Notes under the pieces: generated by a model
Told to the model about the DNA's origin: nothing
What the model saw: the letters and a program-made list of their open reading frames with translations, nothing else
Databases searched by the model: none
Program-made: the position numbers and the translations under genes
In this document: positions 8,302 to 40,722 of the stretch, piece by piece
How positions within the stretch are numbered: the stretch's first letter is position 1
Layout: each line of letters begins with the position of its first letter
Assembly (NCBI RefSeq): GCF_002836475.1
Contig: NZ_PJBJ01000030.1
Location: 868,001 to 932,000 of the forward strand
Length of the DNA: 64,000 bases
DNA from: Flavobacterium sp. ALD4
GTDB taxonomy: Bacteria; Bacteroidota; Bacteroidia; Flavobacteriales; Flavobacteriaceae
Reading direction: 5' to 3'

Positions 8302-9378
8302 TTGAAAGTTGTCCATATTGTTGAAGCGCTAGCGGGAGGAGTTCACACTTATTTCAAAGAGCTATCCTTTTTTTTTGGGAGTTCTGAAATAAAGGAGGCT
8401 ATTGATACCACTATTATTTACAGCGAAACCCGAAAAAAAGTTGATTCGGAAAAAATAAACACGGAATTTTCAAAAGGAGTGTCGCTTGTTGAGCTCAAAA
8501 TGGTTCGCGAATTTTCACCTCTTCAAGATCTAAAATCACTTTTAAAACTAACCAAGGAACTTCGAAGAATACAACCGGATGTCATCCATCTGCACTCTTC
8601 AAAAGCAGGTGTTTTAGGACGAATTGCCTGTTTTCTATTATTTAAAAAAACAAAGCTGTTTTATACACCACATGGCTATTCGTTCCTGCGAACCGATACC
8701 TCCAGTTTTACTAAAAAAATGTATCGATTAATTGAAAGTAGTTTCCAACGAATATTTGGTGGTGCGACTATTGCTTGTGGTGATACAGAATATGGAATAG
8801 CCAAAACCATTGGAAAGTCGCATCTGGTTAGAAACGGAATTGATATTAAAAAGGTTCAAAAATACAGTTCTAAAAACGACAATATCGTCCTAACGATAGG
8901 CATTGTTGGCAGAATAACTTAAGCTAGGGATCCAGAATTATTTAATGAAATCGCATTAAGACATTCTAATCTGAATTTTCTCTGGATTGGAGACGGAGAA
9001 TTACAATCACTACTAACTGCCTCAAACATAAGGATCACTGGTTGGTTCCTTGATAGAGAAGATGCACTTACAGCGCTTAATACTATTGATATTTATATTC
9101 AGACTTCGCTATGGGAAGGCTTGCCGATTGCGGTTCTCGAGGCAATGGCTATGCAGAAACCTGTTTTAGCAACAAATATTATCGGGAATAAAGATGTAGT
9201 AGTACATAGTGAAACCGGTTTCCTTTTTGATGAGATCGCTGAATTAGATAACTATATCGAAATTCTAAAAGACGAAGAAGTGCGACACCGTTTTGGGATA
9301 AAAGGCTTAGAAAGGTGCCAAGATTTATTTGACAGTGCGAAAAATTTTAAGTTATTAATCGCTCTTTACAAACAGTAG
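8302..9378 (+). pseudogene. Family 4 glycosyltransferase interrupted by one in-frame TAA
   Basis: A GT-B transferase of 358 codon positions, starting at a TTG (KVVHIVEALAGGVHTYF) with no better ATG. The N-terminal domain includes LHSSKAGVLGR and TPHGYSF; the C-terminal domain holds WEGLPIAVLEAMAMQKPV, the EX7E donor-site motif. Codon 207 (8920-8922) is TAA, between GRIT and ARDPELFNEIA. The frame is unchanged across it and both halves read well, so one base change from Tyr TAT or TAC is the simplest explanation. It overlaps the convergent ligase-like gene by 32 bases. It could be a recent mutation, a sequencing error or a read-through codon. Confidence 0.85.
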
Positions 9379-10585
9379 CTTTCTCTTGCAGCCAAAAACT
9401 GCCGAAGACAGAAAACCAAAATCCGCTAAAAGCGATTCCGTCAAAGCGCAATAGAAAATCATCCGTTAGATTTGAAGTTAAAAAGAGAACAAAGAAAAAT
9501 ATAACAATTGCATTTTTTAAATCAAACCCTAAATATCCGATTGTGAAAATGTATAAAAAGACTACAACTGGGCCCAGAACTCCAAATTTTAATAGAAAAT
9601 CCAGAAACTGATTGTGTGTTGGAAATTCATATTTCGCTAGAAAATGCTGGTTGGTTTGTTTGTAATATTTAAATAATTCCGGTTTCCCATTTGAAGCACC
9701 AACTCCAAAAGGCAGATGATCTAAGGACAGTTCCCAGGCAGATTTCCAAATGGACACGCGTGTAACAAATGAATTAAATACTTTTGCTTCCGGGTTTTCA
9801 ATCTCATCTAGTTTGCCCACTTTATCCATGTATGCAAATGTTACCGTGCTATATTTCTTTTTCATATAGGGATTGTTTTTAACGAACAGCAAAAGAATTC
9901 CTCCTAACAAAACAGCCCCCAAAGTTATGATTACAGCCACTTTCTTAAAATTATAATTTCGAATGACTTCGTAGAAAAAAATGATAATTGTACCAGCAAT
10001 TACATTAAAAAGAGCCATTCGGGTATTCACAAAAAGCACAAAGAAAAAAGAAAGTGCAAAAACCAATACTCTAAGTAATTTATAAGCTAAATTTTCTTTT
10101 TTTCGAAAAGCATAAAGAACAAAATACATACTAATAATCGCTCCAAAAGCAAGGTGCATATTGAGCGCCGGTGGATGAATTTCGATAGAATTAGAGAAAC
10201 TGTATCCCATTTCTCATAAATCAGTACCGCTTACATATTTATCTATCAAGTCCGGATAAACGACAATAAACCGAATGAAGAAAAACAATACAATCGCAGT
10301 CATTGTGTAGCTATAAAATTGCAGTAATTTAATAAATTGCACCCGCTTATAATTCCCCAGAATAAACACCGGAAAGAGTAGTAACGAAATACTTTTTTCC
10401 ACCGATTTCAATCCTTCTCCAAAAGAATCATTATTCCAAAAAAGTAAAATCTCTAATATTAATGGTGAAGCTATAACCAAACCCAATAATATTGCTAATC
10501 GAGTTAGTTTTAATTTTTTTTTAAAGACTAAATTAAACAAGACAAATCCAATAATAATCCAAGTACATGGTTTTCTAAAAATCAT
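9347..10585 (-). pseudogene. O-antigen ligase/Wzy-like membrane protein interrupted by one in-frame TGA
   Basis: Two open stretches (10585-10214 and 10210-9347) lie in the same frame, separated only by TGA at 10214-10216 and one GAA codon. Joined, they give a 412-position polytopic protein. The section after the stop contains SIEIHPPALNMHLAFGA and a large loop with GVGASNGKPELF and FPTHNQFLDFLLKFGVLGP, characteristic of the O-antigen ligase (WaaL/Wzy_C) family. TGA could derive from TGG, CGA or GGA by one change. Upstream the frame is also open to the stop of the preceding gene, so the start at 10585 is the likely but not certain one. It would polymerise or ligate glycan at the periplasmic face. 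Confidence 0.82.
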
Positions 10586-10621
10586 GTACTTGCAATTAGA
10601 AATAGAAAAATATTGAAAATT

Positions 10622-11686
10622 TTATTGAAGTTCTTTTCTGAAATGTTCATAGTATAAGGCATAATAAATTAAAGGAAACACTCCTATTTTATGACGAATT
10701 GCGGTTCCTAAATCGGGTTCAAAAACCCCTTGAACAATAAAATATGAAAACAAAATAAGCAATATCCACAGTTCATATTCCTGTTCTTTTCTATTCTTTA
10801 AACAGCGTGAAAAGAGTACCAAAAGAATATAAAATAATAAAAGTTGCCAAATAACGAATGCGATGATCTGAGGAGATAAAAAGTGTTTTAAGCCATTTAC
10901 AGGAAAGTTGACCGTGAAAAAACCATAGACAATACCCACAGTTTCGCCATACCAAGTGTCTGGTTTAAGAGGAGAAACAATCATGGAGTTAGCATCTTGT
11001 GACCGTACTCTACCACTATTAACTACTTCCCTACTACTTTCAGAAAGATACTGTCCTTTCAGGATACCATAACTTAAGGATAAAAAAACAGCGATACAAA
11101 GTCCGTAAAAAATAGTGGTTAGCGTTTTATTCTTAAAATTGATAAAACACACTAAATACATCCCAAATGCAATAATAGGTATTAGTAAAAAGTAAGGGCG
11201 ATAAAAAGCTCCCAAAACCCCCAATAAGAACAGGGACAAAAAAATTGATTTTTTGAAAGAGATACTCTCACTCTTATAAATAAATACAATGAGTGCCAAA
11301 TACAAATAAGTAATAAACTCTTTGGAAAGCATCGACATAAAAATAGCAATCATAAAAAACCCTAAATAAACCAGGAGATTCTTTACATTAATTTTATCAA
11401 AAGTAGCAGTCACTCCTATCTTATATAAAACATAAGCGAAAATGGGATATTGAATTAATGCAATCAAAGGAAAAGGCAAATAACGCAACCCTGTTATTTT
11501 ATAAAATAATATAGTAAGTGGATAACTTCCTAAAAAACCAATCTCATTTCCTTTATCGAATGCAATAAGAGTAGCGTCGTAAAAAAACCGTTTGGGCAAT
11601 ACGTAAAATGCCAGTACCGCAACAAATAAGTTGCAAATAAATAATAGCATAAAAGCCGCTTTATTTTTTTTTACTATTCTCCTCAT
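10622..11686 (-). CDS. Polytopic membrane protein, EpsG/Wzy-like polymerase candidate
   Basis: A 354-residue protein with about nine or ten membrane helices spread along its length. A hydrophilic loop (about 208-245, SESSREVVNSGRVRSQDANS onward) and the C-terminal EPDLGTAIRHKIGVFPLIYY resemble polysaccharide polymerases of EpsG/Wzy type. Its start overlaps the stop of the upstream glycosyltransferase in an ATGA, showing translational coupling within the leftward operon. It is likely the repeat-unit polymerase; the exact family is not certain because such proteins share little sequence. Confidence 0.68.
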   Translation of the reverse strand: MRRIVKKNKAAFMLLFICNLFVAVLAFYVLPKRFFYDATLIAFDKGNEIGFLGSYPLTILFYKITGLRYLPFPLIALIQYPIFAYVLYKIGVTATFDKINVKNLLVYLGFFMIAIFMSMLSKEFITYLYLALIVFIYKSESISFKKSIFLSLFLLGVLGAFYRPYFLLIPIIAFGMYLVCFINFKNKTLTTIFYGLCIAVFLSLSYGILKGQYLSESSREVVNSGRVRSQDANSMIVSPLKPDTWYGETVGIVYGFFTVNFPVNGLKHFLSPQIIAFVIWQLLLFYILLVLFSRCLKNRKEQEYELWILLILFSYFIVQGVFEPDLGTAIRHKIGVFPLIYYALYYEHFRKELQ

Positions 11687-21495: not shown

Positions 21496-21585
21496 TCTAG
21501 TATTGGATAATTTTAAAATGTGATAAAAATAAAAATGTGTAATTATAAACTATAAATTGGTCTAATTATTTTATTGCTAAAATAA

Positions 21586-21593
21586 TAGCTTTG
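21586..21593 (+). promoter_or_regulatory. -7 element upstream of the DUF1294 gene
   Basis: TAGCTTTG matches TAnnTTTG and lies 20 bases before the start at 21613. No good -33 match at usual spacing. Confidence 0.35.
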
Positions 21594-21612
21594 AACTTAA
21601 ATTGATATCAAT

Positions 21613-21891
21613 ATGATTTACTTATATGCTTTTATTATACTAAATCTTCTTGCTTTCCTAATTACGGCCTATGATAAACGACTGGCAATTGCCAATAAAA
21701 AAAGGATTTCAGAAGAAACCCTTTTAACATTTGCCGCTATTGGCGGTACAATTGGTTCGGCTTTAGCCATGTATCTACTTAGACATAAAACTTCAAAAAA
21801 ATATTATCTTTTTAAGTTCTACAGAATTGTAATCCTACAAACCATAGTAGCCGTGGGATTATTTTATTTTTATGACAAATTGTTTTTGTAA
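21613..21891 (+). CDS. DUF1294 small membrane protein
   Basis: A 92-residue membrane protein with the family signature: AYDKRLAIANKKRISEETLL, then the AAIGGTIGSALAMYLLRHKTSKKYYLFKFYRI block, and about three helices (2-18, 40-56, 71-88). Function unknown; some relatives are fused to a cold-shock domain, which is absent here. It ends 7 bases from the convergent rpiB stop. Confidence 0.88.
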   Translation: MIYLYAFIILNLLAFLITAYDKRLAIANKKRISEETLLTFAAIGGTIGSALAMYLLRHKTSKKYYLFKFYRIVILQTIVAVGLFYFYDKLFL

Positions 21892-21898
21892 AAAATAC

Positions 21899-22330
21899 TT
21901 ACTGACAGGTAATTTTATTCACTCTGTTTTGGTGTCTTCCCCCGTCAAATTCCGTATTTATAAAAGTCTCTACCATTTCTACCGCTTGTGGAATAGAAGT
22001 ATAACGAGCTGGAATACTAATGATATTCGCATCATTGTGTTGGCGCGCTAAAGCTGCTATCTCTTTCATCCAACATAGAGCAGCACGTACTTTGTGGTGT
22101 TTGTTTGCGGTCATTGCGATTCCGTTACCACTTCCGCAGATAACAATTCCAAAATCAACTTTTCCTTCAGCTACATCTGTTGCAACAGGATGTCCAAAAT
22201 CAGGATAGTCTACACTATCTGTTGAATCCGTTCCATAATTAGTTACTTCGTATCCTTTTGCTTTAAGCATATCAACGATAGCCTTTTTATATTCTGGACC
22301 GGCATGGTCATTTCCAATAGCTATTTTCAT
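21899..22330 (-). CDS. rpiB: Ribose-5-phosphate isomerase B
   Basis: Interconverts ribose-5-phosphate and ribulose-5-phosphate in the pentose phosphate pathway. 143 residues, a normal length. It begins MKIAIGNDHAGPEYK, has catalytic Cys65 in GIVICGSGNG and His98 in RQHNDAN, and ends with the conserved phosphate-binding FDGGRHQNRV. Transcribed leftward from the edge of the large AT-rich gap, with its own -7 element. Confidence 0.95.
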   Translation of the reverse strand: MKIAIGNDHAGPEYKKAIVDMLKAKGYEVTNYGTDSTDSVDYPDFGHPVATDVAEGKVDFGIVICGSGNGIAMTANKHHKVRAALCWMKEIAALARQHNDANIISIPARYTSIPQAVEMVETFINTEFDGGRHQNRVNKITCQ

Positions 22331-22355
22331 TTTATTTCTATTAAGTTGTGTCTTG

Positions 22356-22363
22356 CAAATCTA
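22356..22363 (-). promoter_or_regulatory. -7 element of rpiB
   Basis: The minus strand reads TAGATTTG followed by C, an exact TAnnTTTGY match 26 bases upstream of the rpiB start. Confidence 0.45.
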
Positions 22364-23024
22364 CCAAAACAATTTTGTAATATTAAAGTATAGAATTCTT
22401 TATTTGCTAAAAAAATACCACCGGAGTAAGCACCTCATTCTACTGGACCGTAACAAGCACATTACTATATTTTTAGCAGTTATCAACAATTCTTATTAAT
22501 TCATAAAACATTGATAATCAATAAATAATATAAATATAAAATGTTAAAAAATTGCATTGTTAATAGAGAAACGCAATTGCTTGATATTCAGTTAACTTTA
22601 AATTAACATTGATTGTTGATAACTTCAGATAGAATATTAGAACTATTTTTCTCTAGTATTAAAAAAATAAGTAATCCAAAACCCATATAAGAAATCCAAA
22701 TTTACTTTGGTGATTTTTTAGAATAGTTATCATTATTAAAAAGTAGTTTATTAACAAAATTTAAATAAATACTTATTTACAAAATCAAATACTTTTAGTT
22801 TATCAACCGTTGTTAATTAAAATCTAAAAACTCTTTAAAACTAGATATTTAAGAACATATAGCATTGTTAACAACTCCCAATAAAATAATACAACTTGGT
22901 TCCAATACTTTTTTTTAAATATTTATTGCGACTATTAACACCCTATAATACCCATTAATAAATAATTTAAATTTAATTTTTCTTTTTATTGTATTATATA
23001 TATGTTGACAACTTTAGAAAAAAG
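22364..23024. other. Candidate chromosomal replication origin (oriC)
   Basis: About 660 bases without any credible gene. By hand count, 22441-23040 is about 20% G+C (121 of 600). It contains DnaA-box-like 9-mers close to TTATCCACA: TTATCAACA at 22480-22488, the same on the minus strand at 22614-22622, TTATTAACA at 22748-22756, TTATCAACC at 22800-22808 and TTGTCAACA on the minus strand at 23003-23011, plus the palindrome TTGTTAACAA at 22865-22874. Gene strand preference and G/C skew reverse here, and parS-like sites lie 13-18 kb away. None of the boxes is a perfect match and dnaA is not adjacent, so this is an inference. Confidence 0.5.
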
Positions 23025-23264
23025 TCAAACAATTTTTAAATTGTTATCGTAACGCATTTCCTGTAAAATTGTTTTTACACTTTCAAAATCATTGGGATGA
23101 ATTTTAAGTTTAATTCCTCCAAGTGCAGTTGAGTACATAGGAACAATAGATGACATTAATTCATTTTGAAAATAATACTGTAAACCTTCCTGATCTAATC
23201 GATGTTTTAGAATTTCTATTTCATGGATATAATCAAAAATGGCTATGGTGATAAATGCTTCCAT
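23025..23264 (-). CDS. DUF2007 small protein
   Basis: 79 residues: ITIAIFDYIHEIEILKHRLDQEGLQYYFQNE followed by GGIKLKIHPNDFESVKTIL fits the DUF2007 (putative signal-transducing, PF09413) fold, a short ferredoxin-like domain with no established function. It starts 118 bases from the divergent rnr gene and its stop is at the edge of the AT-rich gap. Confidence 0.75.
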   Translation of the reverse strand: MEAFITIAIFDYIHEIEILKHRLDQEGLQYYFQNELMSSIVPMYSTALGGIKLKIHPNDFESVKTILQEMRYDNNLKIV

Positions 23265-23382
23265 TTTTATTGTTTTAATAAAGATACAACTATTCTTTAA
23301 AGTTATATTTTATTTAAAACTGCCTTCTATTTTCTTTCATTTGCTAACTATTTTGTAATTTTCGACTTTTAAGAACAGATTT

Positions 23383-25575
23383 ATGAGTAAAAGAATAAGA
23401 AAGCCGGTAAAGAAAGAGAAAGATTTCTCTGAACAAATTATAAAAATATTATCGCAAAGTGCTAATAAAGCATTTAATTTTAAACAAATAGGGGCAAAGC
23501 TGGAGCTGGATGATACGCAAAGCAGGAACCAAATTATAAAGGATTTAAAGATACTGGCAAGCCAAAATAAAATTATTGAAGCGGAGCCTGGAAAATATTT
23601 AATCAAAGCGGAAAGCAAAGAGTATTACGAGGGCAAGATTGACATGACGGGTAGAAAAACTGCCTATTTTGTCTGTGCTGAATTAGAGGAGGATGTTTTT
23701 ATTCCGACAAATAATTTGAATCATGCCTTAGATAAAGATATTGTCAAAGTTTATGTTTACAACCGAAGAAAAGGGAAAAGACCCGAAGGTGAGGTTATTG
23801 AAGTGATTGAAAGACATAAAACTGACTTTGTAGGGGTAATTGATATTCAAAAGAATTTTTCTTTTGTTTCTACAGCCAATCCAAAAATGTATACGGATAT
23901 TTTTATTCCAAAAGATAGAATAGGCGAGGCAGAGCAAGGTGATGTAGTATTGGTCCATATCGAAGACTGGCCTGCAAGAGCGGATAGTCCTTTTGGAAAA
24001 GTTATAAAAGTATTGGGTAAACCAGGAGAACACGATACCGAAATACACGCTATTTTAGCTGAGTACGGTCTACCGGCTGAATTTCCGATTGAAGTGGAAA
24101 CTTTTGCTCAAAAAATTGATACTTCAATAGAGGAAAGTGAAATTGCCAAACGTCGCGATATGCGCGATACTTTGACTTTCACTATTGATCCAAAAGATGC
24201 CAAAGATTTTGATGATGCTTTATCATTTAAAAAATTGGAAAATGGAAATTATGAAATAGGTATTCATATTGCCGATGTTTCGTATTATTTAGAAGAAGGA
24301 AGTATTCTCGATGACGAAGCGTATCAAAGAGCTACCTCTGTTTATTTAGTGGACAGAGTAGTACCTATGTTGCCGGAAGTGTTATCTAATTTTGCTTGTT
24401 CGTTGCGTCCAAATGAAGAAAAATATACTTTTTCGGCTATTTTTGAAATAACAGATAAATGTGAGGTGGTTGATCAATGGTTTGGAAGAACAGTTATTTA
24501 TTCTGACCAACGTTTTGCTTACGAAGAAGCGCAATATATCATAGAAACAAAAGACAATACTATGCCGGAAGAAATTTCCATAATCGGAAGTTCTTATGTT
24601 GTATCTGATGAGATTGTTGCCGCTACTTTAAAAATGGATCAGTTAGCTAAGATTTTCCGAAGAAACAGAATGAATGACGGAGCGATTTCTTTTGACAAAG
24701 TAGAAGTTAAATTTAATTTAAATCAAGAAGGGGAACCGGAAGGCGTTTATTTTAAAGTTTCAAAAGATGCCAATCACATGATTGAGGAATTTATGCTTTT
24801 GGCTAATAAAAAGGTAGCTGAATTTATTGGTAAACAAAAGAAAACATTTATTTATAGAATTCACGATGAGCCTAATGCCGATAAGTTAGTCGCATTACAA
24901 ACGGTTATCGCAAAATTTGGTTATAAAATTGATTTAAGAAGTAAAGATGATATTTCGAAATCATTGAATAGTTTATTGAGTGAAGTTGTCGGAAAAAAAG
25001 AACAAAACTTAGTGGATACTTTGACCATCAGAACGATGAGTAAGGCGAAATATTCCACTGATAATATAGGACATTACGGACTAGCATTTGATTATTATTC
25101 CCATTTTACGTCACCGATACGTCGTTATCCTGATGTAATGGTCCATCGCTTATTGCAACATTATCTCGATGGTGGAAAATCAGCGGATGAAGAAACATAT
25201 GAAGCTAAATGTTTGCATTCTTCTACGATGGAAGGTTTAGCGACTAGTGCGGAAAGAGATTCTATTAAATATATGCAAGTGAAATACATGCAGGATCATA
25301 AAGATCAAGAATTTTTGGGTGTAATTTCGGGTGTTACCGAATGGGGAATTTTTGTCGAAATTATCGAAAACAAATGTGAAGGAATGTGTCGAATTAGAGA
25401 TATAAAAGACGATTATTACACTTTTGATAATGAGCAGTATGCACTTGTGGGAGCAACTTCTCAAAAATTACTGCAATTAGGGGATGAAATTTACGTTAAG
25501 GTCAAGAATGCTGATCTGGTTAAAAAACAACTGGATTTTAATTTTTTAAGACGTATTGAAGAACCATTAAAATAA
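23383..25575 (+). CDS. rnr: Ribonuclease R
   Basis: A 730-residue 3'-to-5' exoribonuclease that degrades structured RNA and takes part in rRNA quality control. N-terminal winged-helix region (NKAFNFKQIGAKLELDDTQ), two cold-shock domains, then the RNB catalytic domain with TIDPKDAKDFDDA (D269, D275, D277, D278 as metal ligands) and HFTSPIRRYPDVMVHRLL near 570-587, and a C-terminal S1 domain (FLGVISGVTEWGIFVEI). The lysine-rich C-terminal tail of some homologues is missing. Followed after 5 bases by the GIN-domain gene, so probably cotranscribed. Confidence 0.96.
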   Translation: MSKRIRKPVKKEKDFSEQIIKILSQSANKAFNFKQIGAKLELDDTQSRNQIIKDLKILASQNKIIEAEPGKYLIKAESKEYYEGKIDMTGRKTAYFVCAELEEDVFIPTNNLNHALDKDIVKVYVYNRRKGKRPEGEVIEVIERHKTDFVGVIDIQKNFSFVSTANPKMYTDIFIPKDRIGEAEQGDVVLVHIEDWPARADSPFGKVIKVLGKPGEHDTEIHAILAEYGLPAEFPIEVETFAQKIDTSIEESEIAKRRDMRDTLTFTIDPKDAKDFDDALSFKKLENGNYEIGIHIADVSYYLEEGSILDDEAYQRATSVYLVDRVVPMLPEVLSNFACSLRPNEEKYTFSAIFEITDKCEVVDQWFGRTVIYSDQRFAYEEAQYIIETKDNTMPEEISIIGSSYVVSDEIVAATLKMDQLAKIFRRNRMNDGAISFDKVEVKFNLNQEGEPEGVYFKVSKDANHMIEEFMLLANKKVAEFIGKQKKTFIYRIHDEPNADKLVALQTVIAKFGYKIDLRSKDDISKSLNSLLSEVVGKKEQNLVDTLTIRTMSKAKYSTDNIGHYGLAFDYYSHFTSPIRRYPDVMVHRLLQHYLDGGKSADEETYEAKCLHSSTMEGLATSAERDSIKYMQVKYMQDHKDQEFLGVISGVTEWGIFVEIIENKCEGMCRIRDIKDDYYTFDNEQYALVGATSQKLLQLGDEIYVKVKNADLVKKQLDFNFLRRIEEPLK

Positions 25576-34713: not shown

Positions 34714-34729
34714 TTTTATAAATTTTGAG

Positions 34730-34738
34730 GCAAAGATA
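34730..34738 (-). promoter_or_regulatory. -7 element of gltX
   Basis: The minus strand reads TATCTTTG followed by C, an exact TAnnTTTGY match 17 bases upstream of gltX. Confidence 0.45.
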
Positions 34739-34869
34739 CAATTTCAATCGCTGAACTGCAGAATTTGAAAACGAGATAATTTTAACATTCTTGAGATTGA
34801 TGCTTTTTTAACATTTCTTTATTCATATTAAATTATTACTTTTAAAGGTTATATAAAACAAATAGTAGT

Positions 34870-37800
34870 TTGGAATCTTTAAATAGTATTTATCAAAAAT
34901 TAGAAGCGTTTATCAGGAGGTATTACACGAATGAATTGATTCGAGGAATAGTACTCTTCATCGGTTTGGGATTGTTGTATTTTCTTTTTACGCTTTTTGT
35001 GGAATATTTTTTATGGCTGAAGCCAATGGCAAGAGCTGTATTGTTTTGGACTTTCGTCGGTGTGGAAGTGTTCCTTTTGTTTCGTTTTATTGTGTTCCCC
35101 ATATTTAAATTATTAAAATTTCAAAAGGGAATCGATTACAATCAGGCTTCAAAAATTATCGGAAGTCACTTTGCCGATGTCAATGACAGCTTAACCAATT
35201 TTCTTCAATTGTCAGATTCTGGCAAGGAGGAACATTCCTCCGAATTACTTTTAGCCTCAATCGAGCAAAAAGCAAACGCTCTGCAACCGATACCTTTTGG
35301 CAATGCCATAAATTTTAAATCAAACAGTAAGCATTTGCCGTTTGCGATCGTTCCCATTTTGCTTATTCTGGTGTTCTATGTTTCCGGGAACAATACTGTG
35401 ATTTCTCAGACTCTTAACAGAGTGGTCCATTTTAATGATACCTTTTTGCCTCCCGCACCTTTTAAATTTGTGTTGCTCAACGGCAATTTACAAACGGAGC
35501 AGAACAAAGATTTTATGCTGAAGATCAAAACGGAGGGAAATGTAGTTCCGGAAAATGTAATGATTTTCATAAACGGCGAGAGTTATTTTATGGAAAATAG
35601 TAAGCTGGGTGAGTTCCAGTTTAAGATTACCAAACCGATGACTGATGTATTGTTTCACGTGGAAGGCAACGCCGTTTCGTCTGAAGAGTATCAGTTGAAA
35701 GTTGCTGCAGTGCCAACGATAGCCAATTTTGAGATGCAATTAAACTACCCATCCTATTTGAATAGAAAAGTGGAAGTGGTTAAAGGAACCGGTAATGCCG
35801 TAATCCCTGAGGGAACGAAAGTAACTTGGAAAATAACTGCTTTGGCGACGCAGGATATTGATTATTCGAGTGAAACCGCTCGTTTTAAGTTTATTAAGGA
35901 ATCTGATTTGTTTTCGTTGTCTAAAAACATAGTTCAAAACACAGATTACCAGGTTGTTACTTCTAACGAACGTATAAAAGATTATGAAAAACTCTCTTAT
36001 CAGCTAACCGTTATTAAGGACCAGTTTCCCACGATCAGTGCAAGCTATGCTCCGGACAGTTTAAAAGTAGATAAAAGCTTTGTTTTGGGACAAATTGTAG
36101 ATGATTACGGGTTGTCTAAACTACAAATTGTATATTATCCTAAGAACAAACCAATGTTAGTGAAACGTGGAGATATCCCAATAAAAACTGCAGTTTATGG
36201 TCAGTTTTGGTATTCTTTTCCGGACAGGTTGCCCGTTGAACAAGGAGTGTCCTATGAGTATTATTTTGAGGTTTTTGACAATGATGCACGGAATGGTTTT
36301 AAAAGCTCAAAAACATCTGTATTCTTTAATCGTATTGTGACCGATGAAGAAAAAAAGGATGAACTGCTACAGCAGCAAAATGACAATATCAATAGCCTGG
36401 AAAAGTCATTAGAAAATCAAGACAAGCAATTATCCGAGATTGATAAGTTACAAAAGACAGGTAAAGAGAAAGAGCAGTTTGAGTTTAAGGAGCAGCAAAA
36501 CGTAAAGGATTTTGTTGAGCGTCAGAAAAAGCAGGATGAGATGATGAAGGAATTTGCTAAGAAAATGAAGGACAATCTGGATCTATTGAAAACCATTATA
36601 AAAGACGAAGTAAAGGAAGATTTGAAGAAGCGCTTGGACAAGGCAGACGAGGATTTAGAAAAAAATCAGAAGTTGTTGGACGAGCTAAAAGAGCTGAACG
36701 ATAAAATTAAAAATGAAGATTTACTGAAGAAATTGGATCAGTTTAAACAGAAAAGTAAAAACCAAATACGGAATTTGGAGCAGTTGGTAGAACTGACCAA
36801 GAAATATTATGTAGAAAAGAAGGCGTTACAATTAGCGGATAAACTAGATAAACTTTCGGAGAAGCAGGATAAGTTAGCGGAGAACGAAAAAGAAAACTCT
36901 GCTGAAAAACAGAAAGCGATTAACTCTGATTTCGAAAAAATTCAGGAAGAACTTAAAGATTTAGATAAAGATAATGGCGAGTTAAAATCACCGGTTGATA
37001 TACCTAATGACCCTGGAGTTGAAAAAAGTATAGTAGACGATTTAAAGAAGGCAAGCGACGAACTTCAAAATGAAAACAAGGCGAAGGCGAAACCGAGTCA
37101 GAAAAAAGCTGCTGGCAAAATGAAGGCCATGGCGAAGAAGATGGAGGAAGGTTTGCAGGGAAGCAAGAAGGATCAGATGGAAGAAGACGTGAAAATGTTG
37201 AGACAAATATTAGATAACCTATTGGCTTTTTCTTTATCTCAGGAATATGTGATGGTGCAATTCAGCGACCTCAAAAGAGGTTCTCCGAGCTTTAATAAAA
37301 ATATTAAATTGCAACAGGATTTGAAACTGCAGTTCAAACATGTTGACGATAGCCTGTTCGCTTTGTCGTTACGTAACCCGAAAATCGCTGAAGACATCAC
37401 CAAAGAGATAGGGAATGTACATTACAATATTGACAAGTCGTTGGTCAGTTTGTCCGATTCCCAAATACCGAAAGGATTATCGCATCAACAATACGCGGTG
37501 TCTTCCGCCAATAAGCTTGGCGATTTCCTGAGTGATATTTTAAACAACATGCAAATGTCTTTATCTAGTATGGGTTCTGGTAAACCTAAACCTGGTAGTG
37601 GGGAGGGAATGCAACTTCCTGACATCATTAAAAAGCAGCAGGGCCTTGGTGATAAAATGAAAGAAGGAATGGAGGAAGGGCAGAAACCGGGTGAGGGGAA
37701 AGACGGAAAGCCAGGTGATGGAGACAAAAAAGGAAAGAATGGTTCTCAAGATGGAGGTATGGAAGAGGGAGACGCGCAGGTTTTGCTAGAGATATATAAG

Positions 37801-38175: not shown

Positions 38176-38591
38176 TCAATTTTAATTACGAAAGTGAATT
38201 CAACTTAGAGAACGAAGACGCTATTGCAAACTGGCTTTCTGCGGCAATTTTGTCGGAAGGCAAGAAAGAGGGAGAAATCAACTACATCTTCTGTGATGAC
38301 GAATACTTACACAAGATCAATCTTGAATATTTAAACCACGATGACCTTACAGATATAATTAGTTTTGATTATACTATGGGGAATGAAATTCACGGGGATA
38401 TTTTTATCTCGGTCGAACGTGTTCAGGAAAACGCAGCGGATTTCAATGTTCCTTTTGAAGAGGAAATACGAAGAGTGATGGTGCACGGCGTCTTGCATTA
38501 TTGCGGATACAAGGACAAGGGAGAAGCTGATGAATTGTTGATGCGCTCGAAGGAAAATGAAAAGCTAGTCTTGTTCCACGTGGAACAATAA
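38172..38591 (+). CDS. ybeY: Endoribonuclease YbeY (rRNA maturation)
   Basis: 139 residues. Processes the 3' end of 16S rRNA and takes part in ribosome quality control. NHDDLTDIISFDY and GDIFIS are typical. The metal motif reads HGVLHYCGYKDKG: His105 and His109 are present, but the third ligand position (115) is Asp rather than His, which I believe is common in Bacteroidota. Translationally coupled to the DUF4175 gene. Its last codons (LFHVEQ, stop) are made of a perfect parS-like palindrome. Confidence 0.9.
   Translation: MINFNYESEFNLENEDAIANWLSAAILSEGKKEGEINYIFCDDEYLHKINLEYLNHDDLTDIISFDYTMGNEIHGDIFISVERVQENAADFNVPFEEEIRRVMVHGVLHYCGYKDKGEADELLMRSKENEKLVLFHVEQ
38572..38587. other. parS-like centromere site 1
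   Basis: TGTTCCACGTGGAACA is a perfect 16-bp palindrome matching the ParB-binding consensus TGTTnCACGTGnAACA at all defined positions; one more base pair on each side extends it to 18. It lies within the final codons of ybeY. Confidence 0.85.
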
Positions 38592-38618
38592 AGATTTAGT
38601 TTATTGTAAGCGCTAGAA

Positions 38619-38634
38619 TGTTTCACGTGGAACA
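38619..38634. other. parS-like centromere site 2
   Basis: TGTTTCACGTGGAACA matches the parS consensus at every defined position. It is 32 bases after site 1, in the short gap between ybeY and mnmG. Confidence 0.85.
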
Positions 38635-38767
38635 ACGGAGATGGGTATAAGAATCTAACTAGAGTTGCGGCACAGGGAACGAGAAAATAAATTTAGGTTT
38701 CAATAATAGAAATAAGTTTTAGTATTGAAATCACATCCCCGTATACCGGGTAAATTCAGATAATAAT

Positions 38768-40639
38768 ATGTTTCAAGAAGAATATGATGTAATTGTGGTG
38801 GGTGCTGGACATGCCGGTTCTGAGGCTGCTGCAGCAGCTGCTAACTTGGGTTCGAAAACCTTATTGGTAACCATGAGCTTACAAAACATTGCTCAAATGT
38901 CTTGCAATCCTGCTATGGGAGGAATTGCTAAAGGGCAAATCGTGCGTGAAATTGATGCTCTTGGTGGGTACTCCGGTATTGTCTCAGACAGGACGGCTAT
39001 CCAATTCAAGATGTTGAATAAATCAAAAGGTCCTGCGATGTGGTCGCCAAGAGTTCAAAGTGACCGTATGAGGTTTGCGGAAGAATGGCGATTGATGTTG
39101 GAAGGAACTGCAAATCTAGATTTTTACCAAGAGATGGTGAAGGGGCTGATTATTGAAAATGGAAAAGTAAAAGGAATACGCACTGCGCTGGGTATTGAAA
39201 TAAAAGCGAAGTCGGTGGTGTTGACTAATGGTACTTTCCTTAATGGTCAAATCCATATTGGTGATAAAAACTTTGGTGGGGGAAGAGCAGGCGAAAGCGC
39301 TTCGGTTGGAATTACTGAAGATTTAATTGCTGCTGGTTTTGAAGCCGGAAGAATGAAGACGGGAACACCTCCGAGAGTGGATGGGCGTTCTCTGGATTAT
39401 TCGAAAATGAACGAGGAGAAGGGAGATGCTAAACCAGATAAGTTTTCTTATTCTGATTTGACGGCGCCTTTGACTCATCAACGATCATGTCATATGACTT
39501 ATACTTCTCTGGAAGTGCATGATATTTTAAGGGAAGGTTTTGATCGTTCTCCGATGTTTAATGGTAGAATAAGAAGCCTTGGACCTAGATATTGTCCGTC
39601 TATTGAAGATAAGATAAATCGTTTTGCCGACAAAGAAAGACATCAGTTATTCATCGAACCGGAGGGATGGAAAACCTGTGAGGTTTATGTGAATGGTTTT
39701 TCTACTTCGCTTCCTGCAGACATTCAGTTTAAGGCGATGAAGTCTATTGCCGGTTTTGAAAACGTGAAATTCCTGCGTGCGGGTTATGCGATCGAATACG
39801 ATTATTTTCCACCAACGCAATTGAGACATACCTTAGAAACGAAGTTAGTGGAAGGTCTCTATTTTGCAGGACAGATCAATGGAACGACAGGTTATGAAGA
39901 AGCGGCTTCGCAAGGATTGATGGCTGGTATTAATGCGCATCTGAAAGTGCATGAAAAAGAGCCTTTGATTTTGAGAAGAGATGAAGCGTATATTGGAGTG
40001 TTGATCGATGATTTAATTACCAAGGGAACAGAAGAGCCGTATCGCATGTTCACCTCGCGAGCCGAATACAGAACGTTATTGCGTCAGGACAATGCCGACT
40101 TTAGATTGACTCCAAAGGGTCATGAAATAGGTTTGGCTTCTGAATTGCGTTTGCGTCGTATGGAGCACAAATTGAAAGAGTCGAACAATATGGTGTCTTT
40201 TTTCAGAGAGACTAGTGTTAGCGTTGCGGAAGCAAATCCAATATTAGAATCAAAAGATACTGCGCTAATCACCCAAGGGGATAAGTTGTTTAAGGTTTTT
40301 TCCCGTCCTCAAATTGACATGGATGACATCATGAAATTTGATAAAGTCAAAAGCTATATTGAAGAGAATGATTTAGATCAGGAAATTTTAGAGCAGGCAG
40401 AAATCCAAGTGAAGTATTCCGGTTACATAGACAAGGAACGAAACAATGCGGATAAATTGACTCGTTTAGAAGATGTGAAAATTCCAGAGGACTTTGATTA
40501 CCATCTAATAAAATCGATGTCCATTGAAGCCAGACAAAAGCTAACTAAGATTCGGCCAGTGACTATTTCACAGGCATCTAGAATCAGCGGTGTTTCCCCA
40601 AGTGACGTGTCGGTACTATTGATTTATATGGGAAGATAA
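38768..40639 (+). CDS. mnmG: tRNA U34 carboxymethylaminomethyl modification enzyme MnmG (GidA)
   Basis: 623 residues. With MnmE it modifies the wobble uridine of several tRNAs, using FAD. The dinucleotide-binding GAGHAG is at 12-17, followed by the family signature MSCNPAMGGIAKGQIVREID, NGTFLNGQIHIG, and the C-terminal MnmE/tRNA-binding region ending SGVSPSDVSVLLIYMG. mnmE is not in this window. The gene is flanked by parS-like sites on both sides. Confidence 0.97.
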   Translation: MFQEEYDVIVVGAGHAGSEAAAAAANLGSKTLLVTMSLQNIAQMSCNPAMGGIAKGQIVREIDALGGYSGIVSDRTAIQFKMLNKSKGPAMWSPRVQSDRMRFAEEWRLMLEGTANLDFYQEMVKGLIIENGKVKGIRTALGIEIKAKSVVLTNGTFLNGQIHIGDKNFGGGRAGESASVGITEDLIAAGFEAGRMKTGTPPRVDGRSLDYSKMNEEKGDAKPDKFSYSDLTAPLTHQRSCHMTYTSLEVHDILREGFDRSPMFNGRIRSLGPRYCPSIEDKINRFADKERHQLFIEPEGWKTCEVYVNGFSTSLPADIQFKAMKSIAGFENVKFLRAGYAIEYDYFPPTQLRHTLETKLVEGLYFAGQINGTTGYEEAASQGLMAGINAHLKVHEKEPLILRRDEAYIGVLIDDLITKGTEEPYRMFTSRAEYRTLLRQDNADFRLTPKGHEIGLASELRLRRMEHKLKESNNMVSFFRETSVSVAEANPILESKDTALITQGDKLFKVFSRPQIDMDDIMKFDKVKSYIEENDLDQEILEQAEIQVKYSGYIDKERNNADKLTRLEDVKIPEDFDYHLIKSMSIEARQKLTKIRPVTISQASRISGVSPSDVSVLLIYMGR

Positions 40640-40706
40640 GATGTTTGATTTATGATTTTTTTAAAATATGCAATTAAAAATCGTTAATCTTAATTCTCAA
40701 ATGATA

Positions 40707-40722
40707 TGTTCCACGTGAAACT
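40707..40722. other. parS-like centromere site 3
   Basis: TGTTCCACGTGAAACT matches the parS consensus except for the last base (T for A). It lies in the gap after mnmG, about 2.1 kb from sites 1 and 2. Confidence 0.75.

Follow-up and report, generated by a model that had tools for sequence, protein, structure and literature searches.

Origins of the E. coli and B. subtilis type have several DnaA boxes beside an AT-rich stretch, as does the Flavobacterium gap described here, and in many bacteria mnmG (gidA) and parS lie near the origin; in our DNA mnmG was found within 16 kb and parS was nearby. The predicted Flavobacterium origin differs from the E. coli and B. subtilis type in being neither beside dnaA nor directly beside mnmG and in having no DnaA-trio run; a simple scan found no run of three or more trios beside any box, the longest run being two. 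The DnaA-trio, part of the basal unwinding system, is not required of all origins. In the Bacteroidetes oriC is commonly far from dnaA, as stated with reference to DoriC in the report on Prevotella intermedia OMA14 (PMC4755523), and the oriC of Elizabethkingia meningoseptica was also predicted to lie far from dnaA (PMC8994065). For Blattabacterium, the accessible text of PMC2768785 reports that no DnaA boxes were found, and the accessible text of PMC5109545 has no bearing on the oriC question. As far as the P. intermedia OMA14 and E. meningoseptica origins are described in the accessible parts of their reports, the Flavobacterium locus resembles them in combining an intergenic box cluster at a skew switch with a distant dnaA; unlike them, it has boxes of the form TTRTYAACA rather than TTATCCACA, and the element was traced through the genus by sequence and found to change place. 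At the level of titles and abstracts we recognised no description of this gap or of such a relocation in the literature; DoriC may list the locus for complete Flavobacterium genomes. The oriC itself is a known kind of element; its local relocation within the genus is the unexpected part, and one that a specialist may not expect.

The window, by which we mean the whole stretch of 64,000 nucleotides that was analysed, spans positions 868001-932000 of contig C1 in the draft genome (G000; 3.37 Mb, 30 contigs) of Flavobacterium sp. ALD4. The entire intergenic gap at 22331-23027 of the window is predicted, with near certainty in our judgement, to be the chromosomal oriC of this organism. An earlier note on this DNA had proposed an origin between rpiB and the DUF2007/rnr genes, a proposal now supported by the skew switch, by a conserved gap with boxes, and by the joint occurrence of the conserved core and the switch elsewhere in 12 genomes. 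The properties expected of an oriC that were found comprise a turn from negative to positive skew on the plus strand, a box cluster beyond chance, a computed, easily melted AT-rich stretch, one core match per genome, and parS in the origin region. The gap, described in the note as some 660 gene-free bases at about 20% G+C, indeed held no gene from 22331 to 23027, with a G+C content of 21.5% (22331-23031) or 21.3% (22364-23024); among all 661-base stretches of the window, the one poorest in G+C (20.1%) begins inside it, at 22455. Its left neighbour is rpiB (21899-22330, minus strand; TIGR01120 above cut-off), the product of which is 94% identical to RpiB of Flavobacterium hiemivividum, F. frigoris, and Flavobacterium sp. 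ACAM 123, which places the organism in that genus. On the right is a DUF2007-like gene of 79 aa (23028-23264, minus strand; PF09413 at 22.6 bits, under the 25.7 cut-off), followed by rnr, encoding ribonuclease R (23383-25575, plus strand; TIGR02063 above cut-off). At the rpiB end of the gap, a conserved block contains TAGATTTG (22356-22363, minus strand), which fits what we take to be the Bacteroidota −7 promoter element, TAnnTTTG, and is likely the rpiB promoter element.

Negative GC skew predominated in the window as far as about 22 kb, and positive skew from 23 kb onwards. The cumulative minimum of the window fell at 23348, 0.3 kb past the gap, and the best switch between adjoining 5-kb segments (−0.118 to +0.181) was at C1:890501, which is window position 22501 and inside the gap, so that the skew does turn where the note had placed the origin. 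Along the 1.4 Mb of contig C1, GC-skew samples were negative at 17 of 18 places left of the gap and positive at 9 of 10 to the right; this two-arm comparison rests on C1, the remaining contigs of the draft not being orientable. The 32 samples on other contigs were positive in 5/7 (C12), 3/3 (C25), 3/3 (C26), 2/2 (C27), 2/3 (C28), and 6/14 (C23, mixed). The four C and G counts made by hand in the note were exactly right, and its statement on gene strands was borne out: with 49 ORFs taken as genes, there were 16 minus and 2 plus genes left of the gap and 22 plus and 9 minus genes to the right. Codon-3 skew left of the gap was −0.096 for minus genes (n=16) and −0.194 for plus genes (n=2); right of the gap it was +0.097 for minus genes (n=9) and +0.164 for plus genes (n=22). 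Genes of the same orientation therefore differ by side, as had been claimed, and since the sign was the same for both orientations on each side, it is the side of the gap and not transcription that decides it.

Every 9-mer that the note had named was present in the gap. The DnaA-box-like sites, located by pattern matching, are TTATCAACA at 22480-22488 (plus strand) and again at 22614-22622 (minus strand), the latter at a position that alignments showed to be conserved in relatives; TTATTAACA at 22748-22756 (plus strand); TTATCAACC at 22800-22808 (plus strand), which in the alignment adjoins a second half-box (the ATTAACAACGGTTGATAA block); and TTGTCAACA at 23003-23011 (minus strand), at the edge of an AT-only stretch and with a core, TCAACA, that was invariant across 16 aligned gaps. 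An overlapping pair of TTGTTAACA sites on both strands (starts 22865 and 22866, together 22865-22874), missing from the note's list, occupies a place where the gap alignment shows TTATTAACA/TTATCAACA in relatives. Seven of the 13 box-pattern matches of the 64-kb window sit inside the 0.7-kb gap, forming the window's densest box cluster. The gap contained 6 matches to TTRTYMACA vs an expected 0.24 after dinucleotide shuffling of its sequence; over the whole window there were 12 matches to TTRTYAACA vs 5.6 expected, a number reached by 2 of 100 shuffles; the signal is the local cluster. Same-strand pairs of TTRTYAACA no more than 200 nt apart occurred at 3 sites in the genome, 2 of them in the gap (backward control, 2 matches). 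The canonical DnaA box TTATCCACA was rejected as the box of this genome: its 36 genome copies equal the backward control, and none is in the gap. From their likeness to known boxes, the sites in the gap would be expected to bind DnaA. By nearest-neighbour energies, no 40-bp segment of the 64-kb window is less stable than 22963-23002, which directly adjoins the box at 23003 and which we regard as the candidate unwinding stretch.

With the consensus that we take to be that of parS, a pattern scan found exact matches at 38572-38587 and 38619-38634 and a parS-like site with one mismatch at 40707-40722. These are the only three places in the genome with at most one mismatch, all within window positions 38572-40722 (backward control, 0), and they lie 15-18 kb from the gap; a further parS-like site with two mismatches is at 35651. 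They agree with the parS-like sites that the note had put 13-18 kb away. Its remark that dnaA is not adjacent also stands, as dnaA is at C1:111962 and the gap at about 890.7 kb, some 780 kb apart. Established knowledge of oriC suggests how such a locus would work: DnaA, made from its distant gene, would bind the cluster of TTRTYAACA-type boxes, the resulting complex would open the AT-rich stretch, probably near 22963-23002, helicase would be loaded, and two forks would depart in opposite directions, after which ParB, bound to parS 15-18 kb to the right, may handle origin segregation.

Conservation was surveyed among 25 genomes of the same genus, the ALD4 genome included. Sixteen had an alignable gap of 626-809 nt beside rpiB, and the gap in G016 was about 1.3 kb; G002 and G020 were cut by a contig end, G003 gave no rpiB, and G009, G011, G018, G019, and G021 had no gap at rpiB. 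The alignment of the 16 gaps revealed invariant or near-invariant box positions, a conserved block free of strict boxes, and the promoter-like block at the rpiB end. A second set comprised 80 loci from named relatives, 76 of them usable in having at least 1500 bases upstream of rpiB. The gap was flanked by rnr and rpiB in 76/76 usable loci, with the DUF2007-like gene also present in 74, and a skew switch occurred at the gap in 65 of the 67 with 3 kb on each side (the misses being L198 and L216). In a 65-row alignment, which leaves out ten loci with gaps above 1 kb, conservation was 0.927 in box columns vs 0.773 elsewhere in the gap. Thus, gap and boxes are kept in close relatives, the check that the note had proposed. 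In ten relatives (L178, L181, L182, L200, L212, L217, L224, L228, L231, and L242) the distance from the DUF2007-like gene to rpiB was 1.0-4.3 kb, pointing to insertion beside the origin.

The conserved core of the predicted oriC (22591-22745, minus strand) contains boxes and also a conserved block free of boxes, made up of GTTTTGGATTA and its flanks. The part of this block around GTTTTGGATTA (window 22650-22700, minus strand) was conserved nearly as well as the boxes. The core is the basis of a sequence-only model, R1, of 155 columns, which at a threshold of E 0.001 matched 183 of 199 Flavobacterium genomes, with a single match in 181 of the 183, ALD4 among them; a second, weak match occurred only in G115 (21.8 bits) and G198 (21.7 bits). 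Sixteen of the 199 genomes gave no core match at E 0.001; one of them (G117) reached 1.5e-4 under laxer filters. In G021, also without a core match, there are four boxes within 260 nt to the left of ybeY-mnmG, and the skew turns locally (−0.062 to +0.182) amid weak surrounding skew; its origin may therefore lie there. In G163, again without the core, rpiB and rnr were adjacent and no box cluster was found within 10 kb of rpiB. R1 did not extend to other families; of six tested, five gave E values of 0.05-0.8 and G037 had no match. Among the matches listed, the distance from core to rpiB (n=149) was below 1 kb in 130, 1.1-4.3 kb in 7, and 12-50 kb in 8, and in 4 the core was on another contig than rpiB, some of these being contig breaks. 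In complete or single-contig genomes, skew was positive at 8/8 samples on one arm and negative at 6/8 on the other in G169, and the corresponding counts in G026 were 6/6 and 6/6. G104 showed the local switch but no clean whole-chromosome V, and G010 was noisy (left 7/7 negative; right 6/8 positive as far as 2.4 Mb and mixed beyond).

Twelve relatives had the core near gltX or ybeY-mnmG and not near rpiB, and skew over 5 kb was negative on one side of it and positive on the other in 12/12, weakly in G011 (−0.011/+0.081). In G009, G011, G162, and G086 it lay between gltX and a DUF4175-like gene (called from a Pfam match under cut-off), a place that corresponds to 34714-34869 of the window; in G067, G204, G181, G121, and G019 it lay between gltX and ybeY-mnmG, where no DUF4175-like gene was detected; and in G082, G149, and G018 it was on the ybeY-mnmG side, no gltX-side gene being detected within the fetched stretch. 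The box pattern had no match in window 34714-34869; this gap of the window does hold one of its least stable 40-bp stretches (34818). Among the matches listed, the distance from relocated core to rpiB was 12-17 kb in G162, G067, G019, G009, G121, and G011 and about 50 kb in G082 and G149; in G018 the two were on different contigs. In G009 and G011, rpiB and the DUF2007-like gene were 42 nt apart and no box cluster remained at rpiB. On the single contig of G204, the 5 samples left of the core were all negative and the next 5 to the right all positive, with two far samples at −0.158 and +0.075; within 10 kb of the core on the right, the outer 5 kb was negative. Nine of the genomes have gltX, and in these the window's genes that were detected between rnr, or its neighbours, and mnmG keep the order of the window, so that the genes between the rpiB and gltX sites would have had their replication direction reversed. 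The strongest test of relocation is the codon-3 skew of these rnr-to-gltX genes in window orientation. Its mean was +0.111 in 12 rpiB-type genomes, 10 of them positive (G013 and G012, with 4 genes each, being slightly negative), and it was negative in 9/9 gltX-type genomes, with means of −0.078 (6 loci, 4 genomes) and −0.088 (5 genomes); these nine genomes belong to two clades and so cannot be counted as independent cases. Skew over all codon positions had means of +0.033 and +0.024 in the gltX type vs +0.180 in the rpiB type, near-zero or slightly positive values being expected if most genes stay on the same strand.

These results bear on other explanations of the gap and of the relocated cores. 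The promoter-like block conserved at the rpiB end and the conserved block without a strict box would suit an alternative in which the gap is just a long stretch regulating rpiB and the DUF2007-like gene, carries sites for another DNA-binding protein, and has the origin elsewhere nearby; however, the skew turns inside the gap, and wherever rpiB was not near the core (12/12), core and switch stood together beside gltX or ybeY-mnmG, from which it follows that the element is not rpiB's own, and we consider this alternative very improbable. Still less credible is a conserved small RNA encoded in the gap. Conservation without an ORF would be in keeping with one, but no Rfam match at gathering score was found in 21500-24000, and the core alignment folded to only four pairs (−0.16 kcal/mol) with no compensatory change; the RNA reading was rejected for want of a match and of a supported fold. 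Faulty assembly or chance matches of the model might be suspected behind the relocated cores, given the weak matches (22-24 bits) in G018, G019, G121, and G149 and the draft state of several genomes. This explanation is highly unlikely: the place between gltX and the DUF4175-like gene is common to four related genomes, G067, G204, and G121 each consist of one contig, every one of the 12 relocated genomes has 4 to 8 boxes no farther than 450 nt from the core, and the intervening genes had negative codon-3 skew in 9/9 genomes tested.

The same gene order with opposite codon-3 skew indicates that oriC changed place in the genus or that an old two-copy state was resolved differently. In an MnmG tree of 30 genomes, the four genomes with the core between gltX and the DUF4175-like gene formed one clade (100/99), nested in a clade (99/97) with four rpiB-type members (G023, G126, G090, and G179); the other eight relocated genomes formed a second clade (100/99) with G021 as sister (97/93), and the fork joining both relocated clades had 93/90. 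In the outgroup G026 the skew switches at rpiB, where a small cluster of boxes also lies, and G028, labelled rpiB type in the tree, has one box only. On this single-gene tree there were either two arrivals in the gltX-ybeY interval, or one arrival and one return, or a two-copy state with differing losses. An ancestral pair of origins, one in the rpiB gap and one in the gltX-ybeY interval, with different copies lost per lineage instead of repeated moves, would account for the use of that interval by both relocated clades and for the grouping of the rpiB-type clade (G023, G126, G090, and G179) with one of them; against it, no two-copy genome was found among the 183 with the core, G115 and G198 alone having their weak second matches, and we hold it possible but rather doubtful. 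We think it likely that the Flavobacterium oriC is a discrete module shifting within a near-fixed gene neighbourhood, leaving the rpiB/rnr gap for the gltX to ybeY-mnmG interval beside parS and perhaps returning, with at least two changes on the MnmG tree unless the old two-copy state was resolved differently; the replication direction of the intervening genes would have been reversed, and their codon-3 skew has since turned.

Flavobacterium is a large genus in which dnaA is no marker of the origin; its predicted oriC is now defined by sequence, and the model locates it in most species tested. Such a model could help in designing plasmids, in deciding where the numbering of a genome should start, and in estimating growth rates from read depth. 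The relocated relatives are a natural experiment: an unchanged series of genes is copied in one direction in some clades and in the other direction in related ones, which makes the effects of head-on vs co-directional transcription and the speed of skew change directly testable.

Downstream of rpiB in locus L144 (G004, about 10400-11150) a repeat of about 225 bases with GTTGTTAACAA boxes occurs three times, the 20 kb there containing 25 box matches; the repeat is perhaps a DnaA-titrating array beside the origin. Beside the relocated origin in locus L348 (G067, 8922-9242), an ORF translates to a near-perfect repeat of about 31 residues and probably represents non-coding DNA repeats.
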